Made by a program: the position numbers and the translations under genes | The notes under the pieces: model-generated | What the model was told of the DNA's origin: nothing | What the model saw: the letters and a program-made list of their open reading frames with translations, nothing else | The model's database searches: none | Assembly (NCBI GenBank): GCA_016787895.1 | Contig: JAEUTN010000020.1 | Coordinates: 186,001 to 250,000 of the forward strand | Direction: 5' to 3' | Length of the DNA: 64,000 nt | Source: Bacteroidia bacterium | Lineage (GTDB): Bacteria > Bacteroidota > Bacteroidia > B-17B0 > Aurantibacillaceae | Part shown: piece by piece, positions 1 through 5,267 of the stretch | How positions within the stretch are numbered: position 1 is the stretch's first letter | Layout of the letters: the number at the start of each line of letters is the position of its first letter

Positions 1-147
1 TACGTCGAGGGTTTTTCGTTCCGGCAATTGAATATCAAAAATCAAAACCAGGAAGGTAATGAGAAGTAGAACCAGTGAAATGGCAATGGTGTTGCTTAAC
101 TTAAACACTACCGAAGCGGTTCTTTCTATTTCTTCCTGCTCTTTCAT
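1..147 (-). CDS. Hypothetical membrane protein, N-terminal part (runs off window)
   Basis: An open frame starts with ATG at 147 on the minus strand and continues past the window edge, giving 49 residues. The start MKEQEEIERT is charged and is followed by one clear hydrophobic segment (about residues 22-38, rich in L, I, V), so it is probably a membrane-anchored protein. Its start lies only 6 bases after the stop of the DUF6691 gene, so it is likely the last visible member of the same sulfur-related operon. I do not recognise the family from this fragment. Confidence 0.55.
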   Translation of the reverse strand, partial: MKEQEEIERTASVVFKLSNTIAISLVLLLITFLVLIFDIQLPERKTLDV

Positions 148-153
148 GTCAAC

Positions 154-660
154 TTAATGCGGCAGTTTTTCTCTGAATTTTCCGTAAGTCCAGGTTCCTA
201 AAATCGCACTTAGTAATGTGATGATAACCACTGTTGAGCCGGAGCCGATTTGGGCAAAAAGCGGACCGGGACATGCGCCGGTGATGGCCCAGCCAATTCC
301 AAACATTAATCCTCCGTAAACATTGCCTTTGTTGAACGCTTTAGGATGGATTTCTACTTCTTCACCATAAATGGTTTTGATGTTGAATTTCCGGATAAGG
401 AAAACGCTGATTAATCCAACCACCACTGCCGAACCAATAATTCCGAACATGTGGAAAGATTGAAAGCGAAACATCTCCTGAATACGGAACCAGGAAATAA
501 TCTCGGCTTTAATAAAAATCAAGCCAAACAAAAGGCCCACTGCTGCGTATTTAAAATTATACCACCAGGGGTGGTTGAGCTCAGACTCGTTGACACACAT
601 GGTGTCGGTGGCCCTGATTTTAAACTCTTCTGATTCTTTTGTAATATCTTCTATTTTCAT
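154..660 (-). CDS. DUF6691 / YeeE-YedE family inner-membrane protein
   Basis: 168 residues with about four membrane segments after a cytosolic N-terminus of roughly 35 residues. The signature GACPGP (residues 128-133, Cys130) near the last two membrane segments is characteristic of the half-size YeeE/YedE-like (DUF6691) proteins that come in pairs and are proposed to move sulfur compounds such as thiosulfate. It follows the sister YeeE-type gene by 4 bases, consistent with a two-subunit transporter. The ATG at 660 is the first start of the frame and keeps this tight spacing. Substrate is inferred from family and neighbours, not shown by the sequence. Confidence 0.85.
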   Translation of the reverse strand: MKIEDITKESEEFKIRATDTMCVNESELNHPWWYNFKYAAVGLLFGLIFIKAEIISWFRIQEMFRFQSFHMFGIIGSAVVVGLISVFLIRKFNIKTIYGEEVEIHPKAFNKGNVYGGLMFGIGWAITGACPGPLFAQIGSGSTVVIITLLSAILGTWTYGKFREKLPH

Positions 661-664
661 ACGA

Positions 665-1225
665 TTAAAGACTTAAAATAAAGGGTAACACATAATTGGC
701 GAAGAGGATGCCTCCGGCCATAAAACAACAGGTGGCAACCAGCGATGGCCATTGCAAAGTGGACAAACCCATGATGGCGTGTCCGCTTGTACAGCCGCCG
801 GCGTAGCGGGTTCCAAAACCCACTAAAAAGCCACCTGCTACTATCATCAAAAATCCTTTTAATGTGAACAAGCTGGTCCAGTTAAAAAGGTCGGCAGGCA
901 CCAATCCTGAAAAATCAGCGATGCCATAGCTGTTTAATTCTGCTGCCAATTCAGGGTGTATTTCTACAGGACCGGCGTTGGGTATAAAAGCACTGGTGAG
1001 AACTCCACCCAATAAGATGCCTCCTACAAAAAACAAATTCCAGGTTTCTTTTTTCCAGTCGTATTTAAAAAACGGAATATTGGCTGGAATACAGGCGGCA
1101 CAAATGTGTCTTAAAGAAGAGCTGATGCCGAATGATTTATTGCCAATCAATAGCAGGATTGGAACAATTAATCCAATCAAAGGGCCGGCGACATACCAGG
1201 GCCAGGGTTCAAATATCCAATTCAT
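665..1225 (-). CDS. YeeE/YedE family thiosulfate-type transporter subunit
   Basis: 186 residues, about five hydrophobic segments. The motif GGCTSGH (residues 143-149, Cys145) is the conserved cysteine motif of YeeE/YedE proteins, which in characterised members carries the sulfur substrate across the inner membrane. The protein is half the size of full-length YeeE, and the DUF6691 gene 4 bases downstream would supply the other half. Upstream lie a -7-like element (TAACTTCG, 1249 to 1242) and the palindromic operator at 1272-1285, so expression is probably controlled together with the other sulfur genes here. Thiosulfate is the likely but unproven cargo. Confidence 0.88.
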
Positions 1226-1241: not shown

Positions 1242-1285
1242 CGAAGTTATGACAAAAGTCATATGAGTTATGTCACTTTTGTAAC
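1242..1285 (-). promoter_or_regulatory. Promoter and operators of the YeeE/DUF6691 operon
   Basis: Read on the minus strand there is a 14-bp palindromic site at 1272-1285 (plus strand GTCACTTTTGTAAC), then a second palindrome at 1249-1262 (ATGACAAAAGTCAT), then TAACTTCG at 1249-1242, a one-mismatch version of the Bacteroidota -7 element TAnnTTTG. The centre of the first site is 36.5 bp upstream of the last base of the -7 element, exactly as at the two other promoters of this locus. The second palindrome overlaps the start region. Its half-site ATGAC fits the looser consensus RTNAC-N4-GTNAY, so it could be a second, possibly negative, site. Confidence 0.6.
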
Positions 1286-1333
1286 ACTGAAAGTTCTTTT
1301 TACAAAAGAGAGGACGATATCAGGGAGGAAAAC

Positions 1334-1363
1334 CCGGTTTAACGAATTAATTCGTTAAACCGG
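1334..1363. repeat. Perfect 30-bp palindrome
   Basis: Left arm CCGGTTTAACGAATT is followed directly by its exact reverse complement with no spacer. It sits in the 253-bp gap between the rhodanese lipoprotein gene and the YeeE gene. It could be a hairpin that ends transcription of the upstream gene, but no strong T-run follows on either strand. A binding site for a dimeric regulator is the other option. Apart from this and the operators described separately, the gap shows no convincing gene. Confidence 0.7.
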
Positions 1364-1478
1364 AAAGGTTATTATTGTTTTCAGAAGAGAGGAAAGACGC
1401 TTCCCTATATCGAATGCATCCTTGGCCTGATGCCGGATGATAAATAAAGGGAAGTTTAGATTTTTAATTTGGTTTTTC

Positions 1479-1841
1479 TTAATTGGCGCAGGACACGTTC
1501 TGCCAGGGACCAAGATTTTCTACATTCTTAATGCCTGCCGCTTCCAGCATGCGTTTGGCGCTACCTGCACGTCCGCCGCTTCTGCACACCAGCACAACAT
1601 GGTCGTAGGCTTTTAGTTCATTGATCTTATCCTGTAACTGATCGAGCGGGTAGTTTACTGAACATTCAGCATGTCCGTCGTATTGCCATTCTTCAGGTGT
1701 GCGAACATCTACTATGATTTCTTTACTCGTTTTCATTTCTTTGGTATTTGATGATGTTGGTTTTTGTGTTTGAGAGTTGCAAGCCCAGGTCATTGTTACG
1801 ATGACCAGGAGCATGACAAGTTTTAATCCTTTTTTTTGCAT
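1479..1841 (-). CDS. Rhodanese-domain lipoprotein
   Basis: 120 residues starting at ATG 1841, chosen because it is followed by a lipoprotein signal: hydrophobic run, then TWAC with the lipid-modified Cys21. A longer frame to 1973 would overlap the upstream gene and lacks a signal at its start. One rhodanese domain fills residues about 38-116. The active-site loop CRSGGRA carries Cys86, so persulfide transfer is plausible. The protein would sit in the periplasm, anchored to a membrane. It starts 1 base after the stop of the metallo-beta-lactamase/rhodanese gene, so the two are co-transcribed and probably act on the same sulfur species. Confidence 0.88.
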   Translation of the reverse strand: MQKKGLKLVMLLVIVTMTWACNSQTQKPTSSNTKEMKTSKEIIVDVRTPEEWQYDGHAECSVNYPLDQLQDKINELKAYDHVVLVCRSGGRAGSAKRMLEAAGIKNVENLGPWQNVSCAN

Positions 1842-1842
1842 G

Positions 1843-3258
1843 TTATGATTTCTGAAGTTTGCTTTGACAAACAAAATTGGTTTTAGGTACTTCAGTTGCG
1901 GAGATGGCTTTAAATCCTCCATCCACTTCTTTGAAGTTATGGATGCCTCTGGCCTTGAGTATACTTGCAGCAATCATGCTTCGGTAGCCACCGGCACAAT
2001 GCATGTAAAACGTTTTGTCGGAAGGAAGTTCTGCAAACCAATTGTTGATGACGTCCAGAGGTTTGTTATACGCCTCTTCAACATGTTCAGCCAGGTATTC
2101 GCTTTCTTTTCTCACGTCAACAACATAATCATTCTTCACATCCACTTCTTTTGAAAATTGTTCGGCGCTGATTCGGTTTACACTGTCGCTTTCCTTGCCT
2201 GCTTTCACCCAGCTTGGATAACCACCTTTGAGGTGACCGAGCACATTATCAAAACCAACGCGGCTTAAACGGGTTACGGCTTCTTCTTCTTTACCGGTTT
2301 CAGCAATCAACAAAATAGATTGTTTAACGTCTCTGATCATCGCGCCCACCCATGGTGCAAAATCCCCATTGATGCCAATGTTAATAGAGCTGGGAACAAA
2401 ACCTTTCGAAAACTCCGCTGCTGAACGCGTGTCGAGTACAAGCGCATCGGTGCTTTCGGCCAGCATTTCAAATTCGTTTACTTCCAGTGCGCGCATGCCT
2501 TTATTCAGCACCTGCTCAAAACTTTCGTACCCTTTTTTATTCATGGCAACATTGTGTGGGAAATAGGCGGGTGGAGGAAGCAAACCATCGGTAACGGCAG
2601 CCACAAAACTGGATTTATTGGGTTGATTTAAAGCGTAATTCATTTTTTTCTGATTACCCAGACTATCCACTGTTTCTTTCATCATGTTTTTACCACAGGC
2701 CGATCCGGCACCGTGTGCAGGGTAAACCGTGATGTCATCCGAAAGCGGGAGGATTTTTGTGTAGAGAGAATCGTACAATAATCCGGCCAGTTCTTCCTGT
2801 GTCATAGAGGCGGCTTTTTGCGCCAGGTCGGGCCGACCCACATCTCCTAAAAAGAGGGTGTCGCCGCTAAAGAGAGCATGATCCTTACCATTCTCATCTT
2901 TTAAAAGATAACACGAGCTTTCCATGGTGTGTCCCGGGGTATGCAACACTTTAATGGTGATGTTACCAATTTTAAATTCTTCTCCGTCTTTAGCAATTGT
3001 GGCTGTAAATTCAGGATTAGCCGTTGGTCCGTACACGATAGGCGCACCGGTTTTTTTGCTGAGGTCGAGGTGTCCGGATACAAAATCGGCGTGAAAGTGG
3101 GTTTCAAAAATATACTTGATTTTTACACCATCCTTTTGAGCACGGTCAATATAAGGTTGTACTTCGCGCAGCGGATCAATGATGGCGGCTTCTCCGTTGG
3201 AGGTAATGTAATAGGCACCTTGTGCCAAACATCCTGTATAAATTTGTTCTATTTTCAT
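1843..3258 (-). CDS. Persulfide dioxygenase-like MBL-fold protein with two rhodanese domains
   Basis: 471 residues. An N-terminal metallo-beta-lactamase domain (about 1-245) has the metal motif HFHADFVSGH (His54, His56, Asp58, His63) and the later TPGHT histidine, as in ETHE1/Blh-type persulfide dioxygenases, which oxidise glutathione-type persulfides to sulfite using Fe and O2. Two rhodanese domains follow (about 258-355 and 365-462). The second has an active loop HCAGGYRS with Cys421. The first reads AETGKEEEA at that place and has no catalytic Cys, so it is probably structural. No signal peptide: cytosolic. It leads an operon with the rhodanese lipoprotein and is preceded by operator sites. 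Confidence 0.9.
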   Translation of the reverse strand: MKIEQIYTGCLAQGAYYITSNGEAAIIDPLREVQPYIDRAQKDGVKIKYIFETHFHADFVSGHLDLSKKTGAPIVYGPTANPEFTATIAKDGEEFKIGNITIKVLHTPGHTMESSCYLLKDENGKDHALFSGDTLFLGDVGRPDLAQKAASMTQEELAGLLYDSLYTKILPLSDDITVYPAHGAGSACGKNMMKETVDSLGNQKKMNYALNQPNKSSFVAAVTDGLLPPPAYFPHNVAMNKKGYESFEQVLNKGMRALEVNEFEMLAESTDALVLDTRSAAEFSKGFVPSSINIGINGDFAPWVGAMIRDVKQSILLIAETGKEEEAVTRLSRVGFDNVLGHLKGGYPSWVKAGKESDSVNRISAEQFSKEVDVKNDYVVDVRKESEYLAEHVEEAYNKPLDVINNWFAELPSDKTFYMHCAGGYRSMIAASILKARGIHNFKEVDGGFKAISATEVPKTNFVCQSKLQKS

Positions 3259-3288
3259 ATGTTCTGTTTCTCTGTTTATTTAATGATT

Positions 3289-3371
3289 CAAAGTTAGTGA
3301 TTTGAAGCGCCCTGTTTGGTAACATTTATTACATCTCTGAGCATTCAGTTAAGCGGTGTAATCAAAGTTAC
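3289..3371 (-). promoter_or_regulatory. Promoter and two operator sites of the MBL-rhodanese operon
   Basis: On the minus strand a -7 element TAACTTTG lies at 3296-3289, 30 bases before the ATG. The palindromic site at 3319-3332 (plus strand GTAACATTTATTAC) is centred 36.5 bp upstream of the end of that element, and no TTTG -33 box is present at the usual place. This is the geometry expected of an activator bound around -42. A second related site (GTAATCAAAGTTAC, 3358-3371) is centred 39 bp further upstream, just past the stop of the TauE gene. Confidence 0.6.
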
Positions 3372-3375
3372 ACAA

Positions 3376-4173
3376 TCATTTAAATAGGGTTTCTTTTGCG
3401 ATGATATAAATTCCCATTACTAAAACGAACCAACCAAAGGCCGGTTTAAGTTTCGCGCCATCGATGCGTTTAGACAGCAGCATGCCAATAAAAATGCCTG
3501 CCGTAGCGAAAGCACTCACAACAGCCAGTAAATTCCAGTTAATGACGGTTTCGCTGCTCTCTCCAAAAAAACCGATGAGGGATTTCGACGCAATAATAAC
3601 CAGTGAAGTGCCTACAGCCTCTTTCATGGGCAGTTTGGATAACAACACCAAAGCCGGAATGATTAAAAAACCTCCACCGGCGCCTACCAGCCCGGTAACC
3701 AAACCAACCAATGCCCCCTCGAGCAAAATCATGGGATAATTAAACACCTGAGGACCCTGTTCTTCTTTTCCGTTCTTTTTGTCTTTTTTAATCATGCTGT
3801 AAGAGGCAGCAATCATAAGCACCGCAAAAAGTACCATCAGAAGCAAGCCTTTACTTACAACAAAACCTCCAAGGCTGAATACCTCTTTAGGGATGGCAGG
3901 TACAATAAACGCTCTGGTTAAAAATACCGCTACAATTGAAGGAATTCCAAAAACCAGTGCCGTTTTTACGTTCACAAGGCCTTTGCGGAAATAGGCCACG
4001 GAGCCGATTGCAGCCGTGAAGCCAACTATAAACAGGGAGTAGGCAGTGGCTGAAACGGCATCAACCGAAAACAAATACACCAGCACAGGTACAGTTAATA
4101 TACTGCCCCCACTACCAATTAAGCCAAGAGATATTCCAATAAGAACAGAAGCCAGGTAACCCAATATTTCCAT
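3376..4173 (-). CDS. TSUP family (TauE/SafE) sulfite/sulfonate exporter
   Basis: 265 residues with about eight hydrophobic segments in two similar halves, each starting with a glycine-rich stretch (GLIGSGGSILTVP near residue 18 and GLVGAGGGFLIIP near residue 162). This duplicated pattern is typical of TSUP permeases, whose characterised members export sulfite, sulfoacetate or related anions. A charged loop of lysines and glutamates separates the halves. Given the neighbouring persulfide dioxygenase-like gene, export of sulfite formed by sulfide oxidation is the likely job (inference). It has its own promoter with the shared operator at 4224-4237. Confidence 0.9.
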   Translation of the reverse strand: MEILGYLASVLIGISLGLIGSGGSILTVPVLVYLFSVDAVSATAYSLFIVGFTAAIGSVAYFRKGLVNVKTALVFGIPSIVAVFLTRAFIVPAIPKEVFSLGGFVVSKGLLLMVLFAVLMIAASYSMIKKDKKNGKEEQGPQVFNYPMILLEGALVGLVTGLVGAGGGFLIIPALVLLSKLPMKEAVGTSLVIIASKSLIGFFGESSETVINWNLLAVVSAFATAGIFIGMLLSKRIDGAKLKPAFGWFVLVMGIYIIAKETLFK

Positions 4174-4193
4174 GTCAAAAAGTAATTAAGGTA

Positions 4194-4237
4194 CAAAAAT
4201 CAGCATTTGGCTCCTCATTGCCGGTCACAAATGTTAC
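4194..4237 (-). promoter_or_regulatory. Promoter and operator of the TauE-type gene
   Basis: The palindromic site GTCACAAATGTTAC occupies 4224-4237. On the minus strand a -7-like element GATTTTTG lies at 4201-4194 (one mismatch to TAnnTTTG), 20 bases before the ATG. The site centre is again 36.5 bp from the last base of this element, identical to the two other promoters of the locus. Confidence 0.58.
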
Positions 4238-5163: not shown

Positions 5164-5182
5164 CATTCTTTCATCACTATAC

Positions 5183-5267
5183 ACCTGGATGTTGAAATTG
5201 GTAGACAAGCACGACTCAGAATCGTGTGCCGCGAGGTGTGTGGGTTCGAATCCCATTCCAGGTACCA
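5183..5267 (+). tRNA. tRNA-Leu (anticodon CAG)
   Basis: An 85-base class II tRNA. The acceptor stem ACCTGGA pairs with TCCAGGT, followed by discriminator A and an encoded CCA. The anticodon stem CACGA/TCGTG encloses loop CTCAGAA, giving anticodon CAG. A long variable arm follows, as expected for leucine, and then the T arm with GGGTTCGAATCCC. Unlike the other two tRNAs of the window, it encodes its CCA end. Confidence 0.95.

Follow-up and report, generated by a model that had tools for sequence, protein, structure and literature searches.

The promoters of three sulfur genes on the minus strand of a 64,000-nucleotide stretch from a Bacteroidia bacterium of the Aurantibacillaceae (assembly GCA_016787895.1, contig JAEUTN010000020.1, positions 186,001 to 250,000; hereafter, the window) share one palindromic operator, placed at an identical distance from the -7 element of each promoter. 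These sites are very probably the operators of a Crp/Fnr activator encoded nearby, which would govern a sulfur-oxidation regulon by class II activation. What has been computed is that the spacing is fixed and conserved, which kinds of genes follow it, that a regulator gene lies nearby, and that regulator and operator are associated. The promoter layout is real and class-wide, and the Crp/Fnr regulon for sulfur oxidation is probably a new one.

Read in the direction of transcription, the pattern consists of GTNAC-N4-GTNAC, a gap of 22 base pairs (bp), and then TAnnTTTG, which we take to be the Bacteroidetes -7 element. The composite (operator-N22-TAnnTTTG) has 14 defined positions, 8 in the operator and 6 in the -7 element. 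All five site sequences and coordinates listed in a first-pass annotation of the window were confirmed on its letters, and the identical spacing that it had claimed is exact, with centers at 1278.5, 3325.5, and 4230.5 each lying 36.5 bp from 1242, 3289, and 4194, respectively. The sites and elements are as follows.

1272..1285, minus strand: operator of the yeeE operon, GTTACAAAAGTGAC; 8/8 of GTNAC-N4-GTNAC, gap 22; its composite has 1 mismatch in the genome-wide scan.
1249-1242, minus strand: -7-like element of the yeeE operon, TAACTTCG; 5/6 of TAnnTTTG at gap 22.
3319..3332, minus strand: operator of the persulfide dioxygenase-rhodanese operon, GTAATAAATGTTAC; 7/8, gap 22.
3296-3289, minus strand: -7 element of the persulfide dioxygenase gene, TAACTTTG; 6/6 of TAnnTTTG.
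4224..4237, minus strand: operator of tauE, GTAACATTTGTGAC; 8/8, gap 22.
4201-4194, minus strand: -7-like element of tauE, GATTTTTG; 5/6 of TAnnTTTG.
3358..3371, minus strand: GTAACTTTGATTAC, a 7/8 match 39 bp upstream of the main dioxygenase operator; possibly a second and weaker site of this promoter.
1249..1262, minus strand: weak site-like palindrome of doubtful role, ATGACTTTTGTCAT; 6/8, touching the yeeE -7-like element.

Within the window, GTNAC-N4-RTNAC occurs in 4 distinct places (1272, 3319, 3358, and 4224), all in these three promoters. The two extra sites proposed beside the main operators fared differently: 3358-3371 was borne out as a 7/8 match, whereas 1249-1262 reaches only 6/8 and touches the -7 element. 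Related genomes seldom have additional sites of at least 7/8 at 10-70 bp upstream (9 around 167 composites), yet such sites are denser there than further upstream, and because of this rarity extra sites were rejected as a general feature of the promoter type. Since some extra upstream sites are carried by the close relatives L213 and L217, the site at 3358 may be a genuine second site in this lineage.

Comparison of promoters in related genomes, which the first-pass annotation had proposed as a check, revealed that the operator, the gap of 22 bp, and the -7 element recur together in two sets of loci. The first set comprised 80 loci with regulator homologs plus the locus studied here (81 in total), and the second comprised 80 further named loci minus three that were overlapping or duplicate (77). 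In the first set, 102 strand-counted 8/8 sites were found, and a perfect -7 element followed at gap 22 in 16 of them and at gap 23 in 4, with 0 or 1 at each of all other gaps from 5 to 37. Two dinucleotide shuffles of this set contained 14 and 20 sites, none of which had a perfect -7 element at any gap. The second set repeated the result, with a perfect -7 element at gap 22 for 60/216 sites, at gap 23 for 2, and elsewhere for 0 or 1. At the loosest thresholds (7/8 for the operator and 5/6 for the -7 element), this set gave 133 at gap 22, 17 at gap 23, and 4 to 14 at the others, gap 24 being taken up below. The operator consensus of the 167 composites was TGTAACatatGTTACt, that is, two 5-bp half-sites with 4-bp spacing, the composites having been preselected for this 5-4-5 arrangement; between operator and -7 element nothing was strongly conserved in them.

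Across 149 Bacteroidia genomes, the strict composite at gap 22 was present in 89 places in 58 genomes (a manual count of the list), compared to 15 places for the backward-read control and 1 place when the gap was set to 27. Regulator homologs (E 1e-20) were detected in 93 of the 149 genomes, and the strict composite was present in 53/93 genomes with the regulator and in 5/56 without it (Fisher 1e-9). Relatives of the dioxygenase (E 1e-60) were found in 125/149 genomes, and when only these were considered, the composite was present in 52/89 with the regulator versus 2/36 without it (Fisher 1e-8). Among the regulator-less genomes, G096 has its composite near a frame of 129 amino acids (aa) resembling the end of a surface protein, and in G128 no open reading frame (ORF) of 60 aa was found within 250 bp of the composite.

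In the 3.6-Mb genome to which the window belongs, the bare GTNAC-N4-RTNAC motif matched in 112 strand-places, compared to 509 for its backward-read control; the bare motif is thus non-specific, and the 14-mer alone was rejected as evidence. The composite at gap 22 with up to 2 mismatches gave 28 matches compared to 72 in the backward-read control, so that matches with 2 mismatches are noise. The operator-N22-TAnnTTTG matches with at most 1 mismatch are 5 in number, of which 4 are the three promoters and one new site; the remaining match (C9:25820) lies antisense inside a permease gene and was rejected. The new fourth site (G000:C24:129216-129259, GTCACTTTTGTTAC-N22-TACCTTTG) is the sole composite with 0 mismatches in the genome and lies just upstream of a 133-aa ORF, with a second persulfide dioxygenase gene running divergently next to it. 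A homolog of the 133-aa protein in L216 has the same operator (gap 23) and is divergent to a dioxygenase gene; a Pfam search with the 133-aa protein gave no match. The start codon of this ORF, below L031:17216-17259, stands 4 nt after the -7 element. A search at gap 23 with 1 mismatch gave 2 matches genome-wide compared to 7 in the backward-read control. One of them, GTAACATTTGTTTC-N23-TATCTTTG (G000:C2:168210-168254, L293), immediately precedes a two-gene set, DUF6132 and then DUF983, that was confirmed by Pfam; the DUF6132-DUF983 operon is likely a fifth target. The other (C4:179973) falls inside a gene that reads as a peptidase and was rejected.

That sulfur genes are the targets, as originally proposed, was backed across the class both by counting the next ORF and by the genome-wide composite list. 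The count covered 188 composites that agreed at 13 or all 14 of the defined positions, taken from L030, L031, and the 80 and 77 loci. The next ORF was a dioxygenase in 46 cases, TauE in 22, rhodanese in 14, and YeeE in 13, and these four together (95/188) are the most frequent targets; the remainder comprised the Crp gene itself (4), a porin (1), other genes (82), and composites with no ORF (6). When the other genes were grouped by BLAST, YgaP-like proteins (22), SulP (7), sulfide:quinone oxidoreductase (SQR)-like proteins (6), and a single molybdopterin oxidoreductase were obtained; one member each of the YgaP, SulP, and molybdopterin groups was tested by Pfam, and one member of the SQR group matched a PDB entry at 1e-101. 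Peroxiredoxin (5), DUF983 (5), TolC (4), and OsmC (3 and 2) were named by reading the sequence. Forty regions fetched from the 149-genome list, most of them outside regulator loci, added thioredoxin-, thioredoxin reductase-, and DsbD-like genes, named in the same manner, and Pfam-confirmed DUF302; in some of these regions the composite precedes genes without an evident sulfur role.

Two groups of genes seen after the operator in relatives deserve separate mention. Genes resembling DUF983 or DUF6132, both families of unknown function, were read in L114, L180, L198, L201, L208, and L263, and the copies seen contain Cys-rich stretches. Genes resembling TolC-type efflux proteins were observed in L089, L197, L202, L211, L219, L223, and L291, hinting at the export of a sulfur compound or a metal.

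The regulator gene, which had been expected just left of the window, is present 4.6 kb from its left end (G000:C2:180751-181383) as the last gene of the yeeE operon, so that one of the three operators precedes the regulator's own operon. From 1225 leftwards, ORFs and Pfam/NCBIfam matches gave the order YeeE, YeeE, SoxA/TsdA-like cytochrome c, DsrE, OprD-type porin, SoxB-like protein, and Crp/Fnr. The order from yeeE to the regulator is identical in L065 and L213, and in L065 the regulator is followed by another dioxygenase gene, which has an operator of its own. The encoded protein (P0001, 210 aa) matched PF00027 (6.1e-10) and PF13545 (2.6e-7), both above cut-off, and combines an N-terminal sensor domain of the cyclic nucleotide monophosphate (cNMP) type with a C-terminal HTH_Crp domain, as in the Crp/Fnr superfamily. 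Its structure model (mean pLDDT 91.7) matched CRP, NtcA, and FNR in Foldseek, and its score against the CRP equivalog was 53.7 bits, below the cut-off of 266. FNR, a 4Fe-4S oxygen sensor, carries an N-terminal Cys cluster; P0001 lacks such a cluster, Cys24 being the sole Cys before residue 76 and absent from the conserved columns. Cys76, by contrast, is invariant (81/81 loci of the first set and 77/77 of the second, 158/158 in all), and Cys82 is present in 59/81 and 76/77. In the model, Cys76 lies immediately before helix 77-84 of the sensor domain, a region that is presumably the counterpart of the cAMP phosphate-binding part of CRP. In the same genome, a further gene (G000:C2:172549-173607; L030:2549-3607) codes for a fusion of three domains (receiver, cNMP-type, and Crp HTH), and its adjoining gene reads as a PAS histidine kinase.

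When the recognition helix was examined, Arg181 and Arg186 were invariant in 81/81 proteins, and residue 182 was Val in 108/158 and Glu in 50/158. In the first set, the third half-site base was G in 25/53 near Glu182 proteins versus 4/84 near Val182 proteins, and the second set gave 11/17 versus 16/234. Permutation of loci yielded p 5e-5 for this link, a value that ignores relatedness.

We propose that the Crp/Fnr protein encoded at the end of the yeeE operon is an activator. As a homodimer it would occupy TGTAAC-N4-GTTAC-like palindromes that stand where the -33 element would otherwise lie, some 41 bp ahead of the transcription start, and from there it would contact RNA polymerase. The -33 element would presumably coincide with the operator, judging from the distance. 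Class II activators have their sites near -41, and the layout was assigned to this class because the operator stands at one distance from the -7 element, over the place of the -33 element, with nothing strongly conserved between. The initial suggestion of a Crp/Fnr-type operator at the class II position is supported by the near-invariant gap of 22 (few 23) and by the gap-27 control. The genes turned on would be those for the persulfide dioxygenase and rhodanese, TauE, YeeE thiosulfate-type uptake, the TsdA- and SoxB-like proteins, and the regulator itself, and the regulon would also take in the small-protein gene beside the second dioxygenase and the DUF6132-DUF983 operon; its role would be the handling of sulfide, persulfide, and thiosulfate. 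We infer that the regulator binds these operators and that it activates rather than represses. The likeliest input would be persulfide or polysulfide, sensed in the counterpart of the ligand-binding region by Cys76, which never varies, frequently together with Cys82/Cys83. In other phyla, sulfide, persulfide, and thiosulfate oxidation is controlled by CsoR-, ArsR-, and sigma-54-type regulators. In Bacteroidota, we tentatively suggest, a widespread Crp/Fnr subfamily could well have turned its ligand-binding region into a cysteine persulfide sensor and serve as the master class II activator of these pathways.

It is improbable that the operators belong to another Crp/Fnr protein, for example an HcpR2-type regulator of nitrosative stress, with the nearby gene being incidental. 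In Rodionov et al. (2005; PMC1274295), the operator GTAACnnnnGTTAC, which has the same letters, is predicted for HcpR2, the regulator of the hybrid cluster protein, which is found in Bacteroides among others, has hcp genes as core targets, and carries Pro (Ser or Gln in three species) at the position of Crp Glu181. Moreover, in two regulator-less genomes (L176 and L177) the composite lies before genes that read as Hcp- and DUF2492-like, which would fit HcpR2 using the same letters. However, a search of the present genome for Hcp (Prismane) gave no match, the control search being positive in 5/14 named genomes, and the specificity position is occupied by Val or Glu in this regulator family, not by Pro; on these two grounds, HcpR2 was rejected as the regulator. 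The genome holds three other HTH_Crp matches, of which two read AKETLVR and ATESLIR where P0001 has SRVVISR and the third is short and below cut-off. Among dioxygenase-bearing genomes, the composite tracks the nearby regulator, and the base in the half-site covaries with residue 182 of that regulator, within the limit set by few independent switches. Even less probable is a repressor that leaves the promoter when sulfur species appear, in the manner of CstR, SqrR, or BigR. Several studied sulfide and persulfide regulators are repressors, CstR and SqrR among them, and the weak palindrome at 1249-1262 touches the -7 element; against this, the distance to the -7 element is held at 22, rarely 23, with no strong conservation between the two. 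Repressor sites normally vary in position and contact with polymerase would require a fixed distance, so the constant operator distance, which would be odd for a repressor, speaks against one.

Activation as proposed, but in response to a signal other than sulfur (oxygen or redox state, nitric oxide, a metabolite, or a cyclic nucleotide), is a real possibility, though we do not favor it. The fold matches to CRP, NtcA, and FNR and the thioredoxin-, peroxiredoxin-, cytochrome bd-, and Dps-like targets read elsewhere are consistent with such a signal, whereas the 95 dioxygenase, TauE, rhodanese, and YeeE targets among 188 and the constancy of Cys76 in 158 loci argue for sulfur. An artifact of chance or base composition is negligible: it would account for the 112 strand-matches of the bare 14-mer and for a 2-mismatch composite rarer than its backward-read control, but not for the drop from 89 places to 1 at gap 27, the empty shuffles, or the return of gap 22 in the second set.

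Several observations weigh against an activator of sulfur genes encoded by the nearby gene. The strict composite is absent from 40/93 regulator-bearing genomes, 19/81 and 16/77 regulator loci lack even a looser composite, and the regulator-less genome G104 has a composite before its dioxygenase. At the loosest thresholds, the second set shows an excess at gap 24 as well, with 23 compared to 133 at gap 22. Because the operator letters were already published for HcpR2, the motif alone cannot name the protein. The loci of the target count were selected for carrying the regulator, so that clustering inflates the share of neighboring genes, and the putative targets TolC, cytochrome bd, ferritin, and Dps, as read from sequence, are not sulfur-specific. 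Cys82 is absent from 22/81 loci. Finally, the tree gives only 4 inferred switches at residue 182, and among the 4 pairs that are independent on the tree, the link holds in 3 and is tied in the fourth (sign p 0.125); the covariation, with a permutation that ignores relatedness, was therefore rejected as proof and retained as support that would tie the operator to the nearby regulator and not to another protein of the cell.

The first-pass gene calls of YeeE, persulfide dioxygenase, and TauE hold according to Pfam, NCBIfam, and PDB profile matches, and the genes surrounding the three promoters are as follows.

3376..4173, minus strand: TauE/SafE sulfite exporter; Pfam PF01925 1.3e-44.
1843..3258, minus strand: persulfide dioxygenase with two rhodanese domains (MBL-Rhod-Rhod); Pfam, and PDB 3tp9 9.1e-69 and 3r2u 1.9e-58, nearly full length.
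1479..1841, minus strand: rhodanese, gene 2 of the dioxygenase operon; Pfam PF00581 2.3e-13.
665..1225, minus strand: YeeE/YedE half-transporter 1 (thiosulfate-type, Sulf_transp); Pfam PF04143 1.3e-15; NCBIfam TsuA 1.5e-7, far under cut-off.
154..660, minus strand: YeeE/YedE half-transporter 2 (DUF6691/Sulf_transp); Pfam PF04143 1.9e-12 and PF20398 4.3e-9.
1..147, minus strand: 5' end of the SoxA/TsdA-like cytochrome c gene, gene 3 of the yeeE operon; ORFs, Pfam/NCBIfam.

By eye, a perfect 30-bp inverted repeat (CCGGTTTAACGAATTAATTCGTTAAACCGG) was seen at 1334-1363, in the interval that separates the rhodanese gene from the yeeE promoter; it is perhaps a terminator hairpin. At about 5180-5266, just right of cheR, the sequence resembles a tRNA-Leu gene, also by eye.

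The operator sequence itself has been published before; within a limited literature search, what seems to be new is the regulator family together with its regulon. No publication describing Crp/Fnr control of sulfide oxidation in Bacteroidota was found, a weak negative from limited open-license searches, most of them with unsuitable phrasing. If the proposal is true, this would be, as far as these searches go, the first Crp/Fnr-type regulator tied to sulfide and persulfide oxidation. With the family present in 93/149 genomes and a readable operator-to-promoter rule, sulfur-response genes could be listed from the genome sequences of uncultured bacteria. The regulon would also give the DUF983 and DUF6132 proteins a testable context, and, if the regulator is indeed the master activator suggested above, would place them in sulfur or thiol metabolism.

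The closest parallel in enzyme logic is the cst system of Staphylococcus aureus, which comprises CstR, CstA, CstB, SQR, and TauE, CstR being a CsoR-family repressor. An MBL-Rhod-Rhod dioxygenase (PDB 3r2u, matched above, is CstB) and TauE recur here, with SQR in some relatives; however, the S. aureus system uses a CsoR-family repressor, whereas here a Crp/Fnr protein would act at an activator position. BigR, SqrR, YgaV, and SoxR (ArsR-type) and FisR (sigma-54) control dioxygenase, rhodanese, or sulfur-oxidation genes through cysteine-based sensing, and differ from the present regulator in protein family and operator. The class II activators CRP, NtcA, and FNR share its fold, domains, and site position near -41, but differ in operator letters and signals, the conserved Cys in the ligand-binding region being a feature of the regulator described here. 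Among solved sequences, the best match of the family profile was PDB 3dv8 (1.8e-36), a putative Crp/Fnr regulator from Eubacterium rectale in which a Cys aligns with Cys76, although identity is low and the phylum is another. HcpR2 (PMC1274295) has the same predicted operator letters and belongs to the same superfamily, but carries Pro (Ser/Gln) at the specificity position where this family has Val or Glu (Val in P0001), and its core targets are hcp genes, whereas the most frequent targets here are sulfide and persulfide genes.

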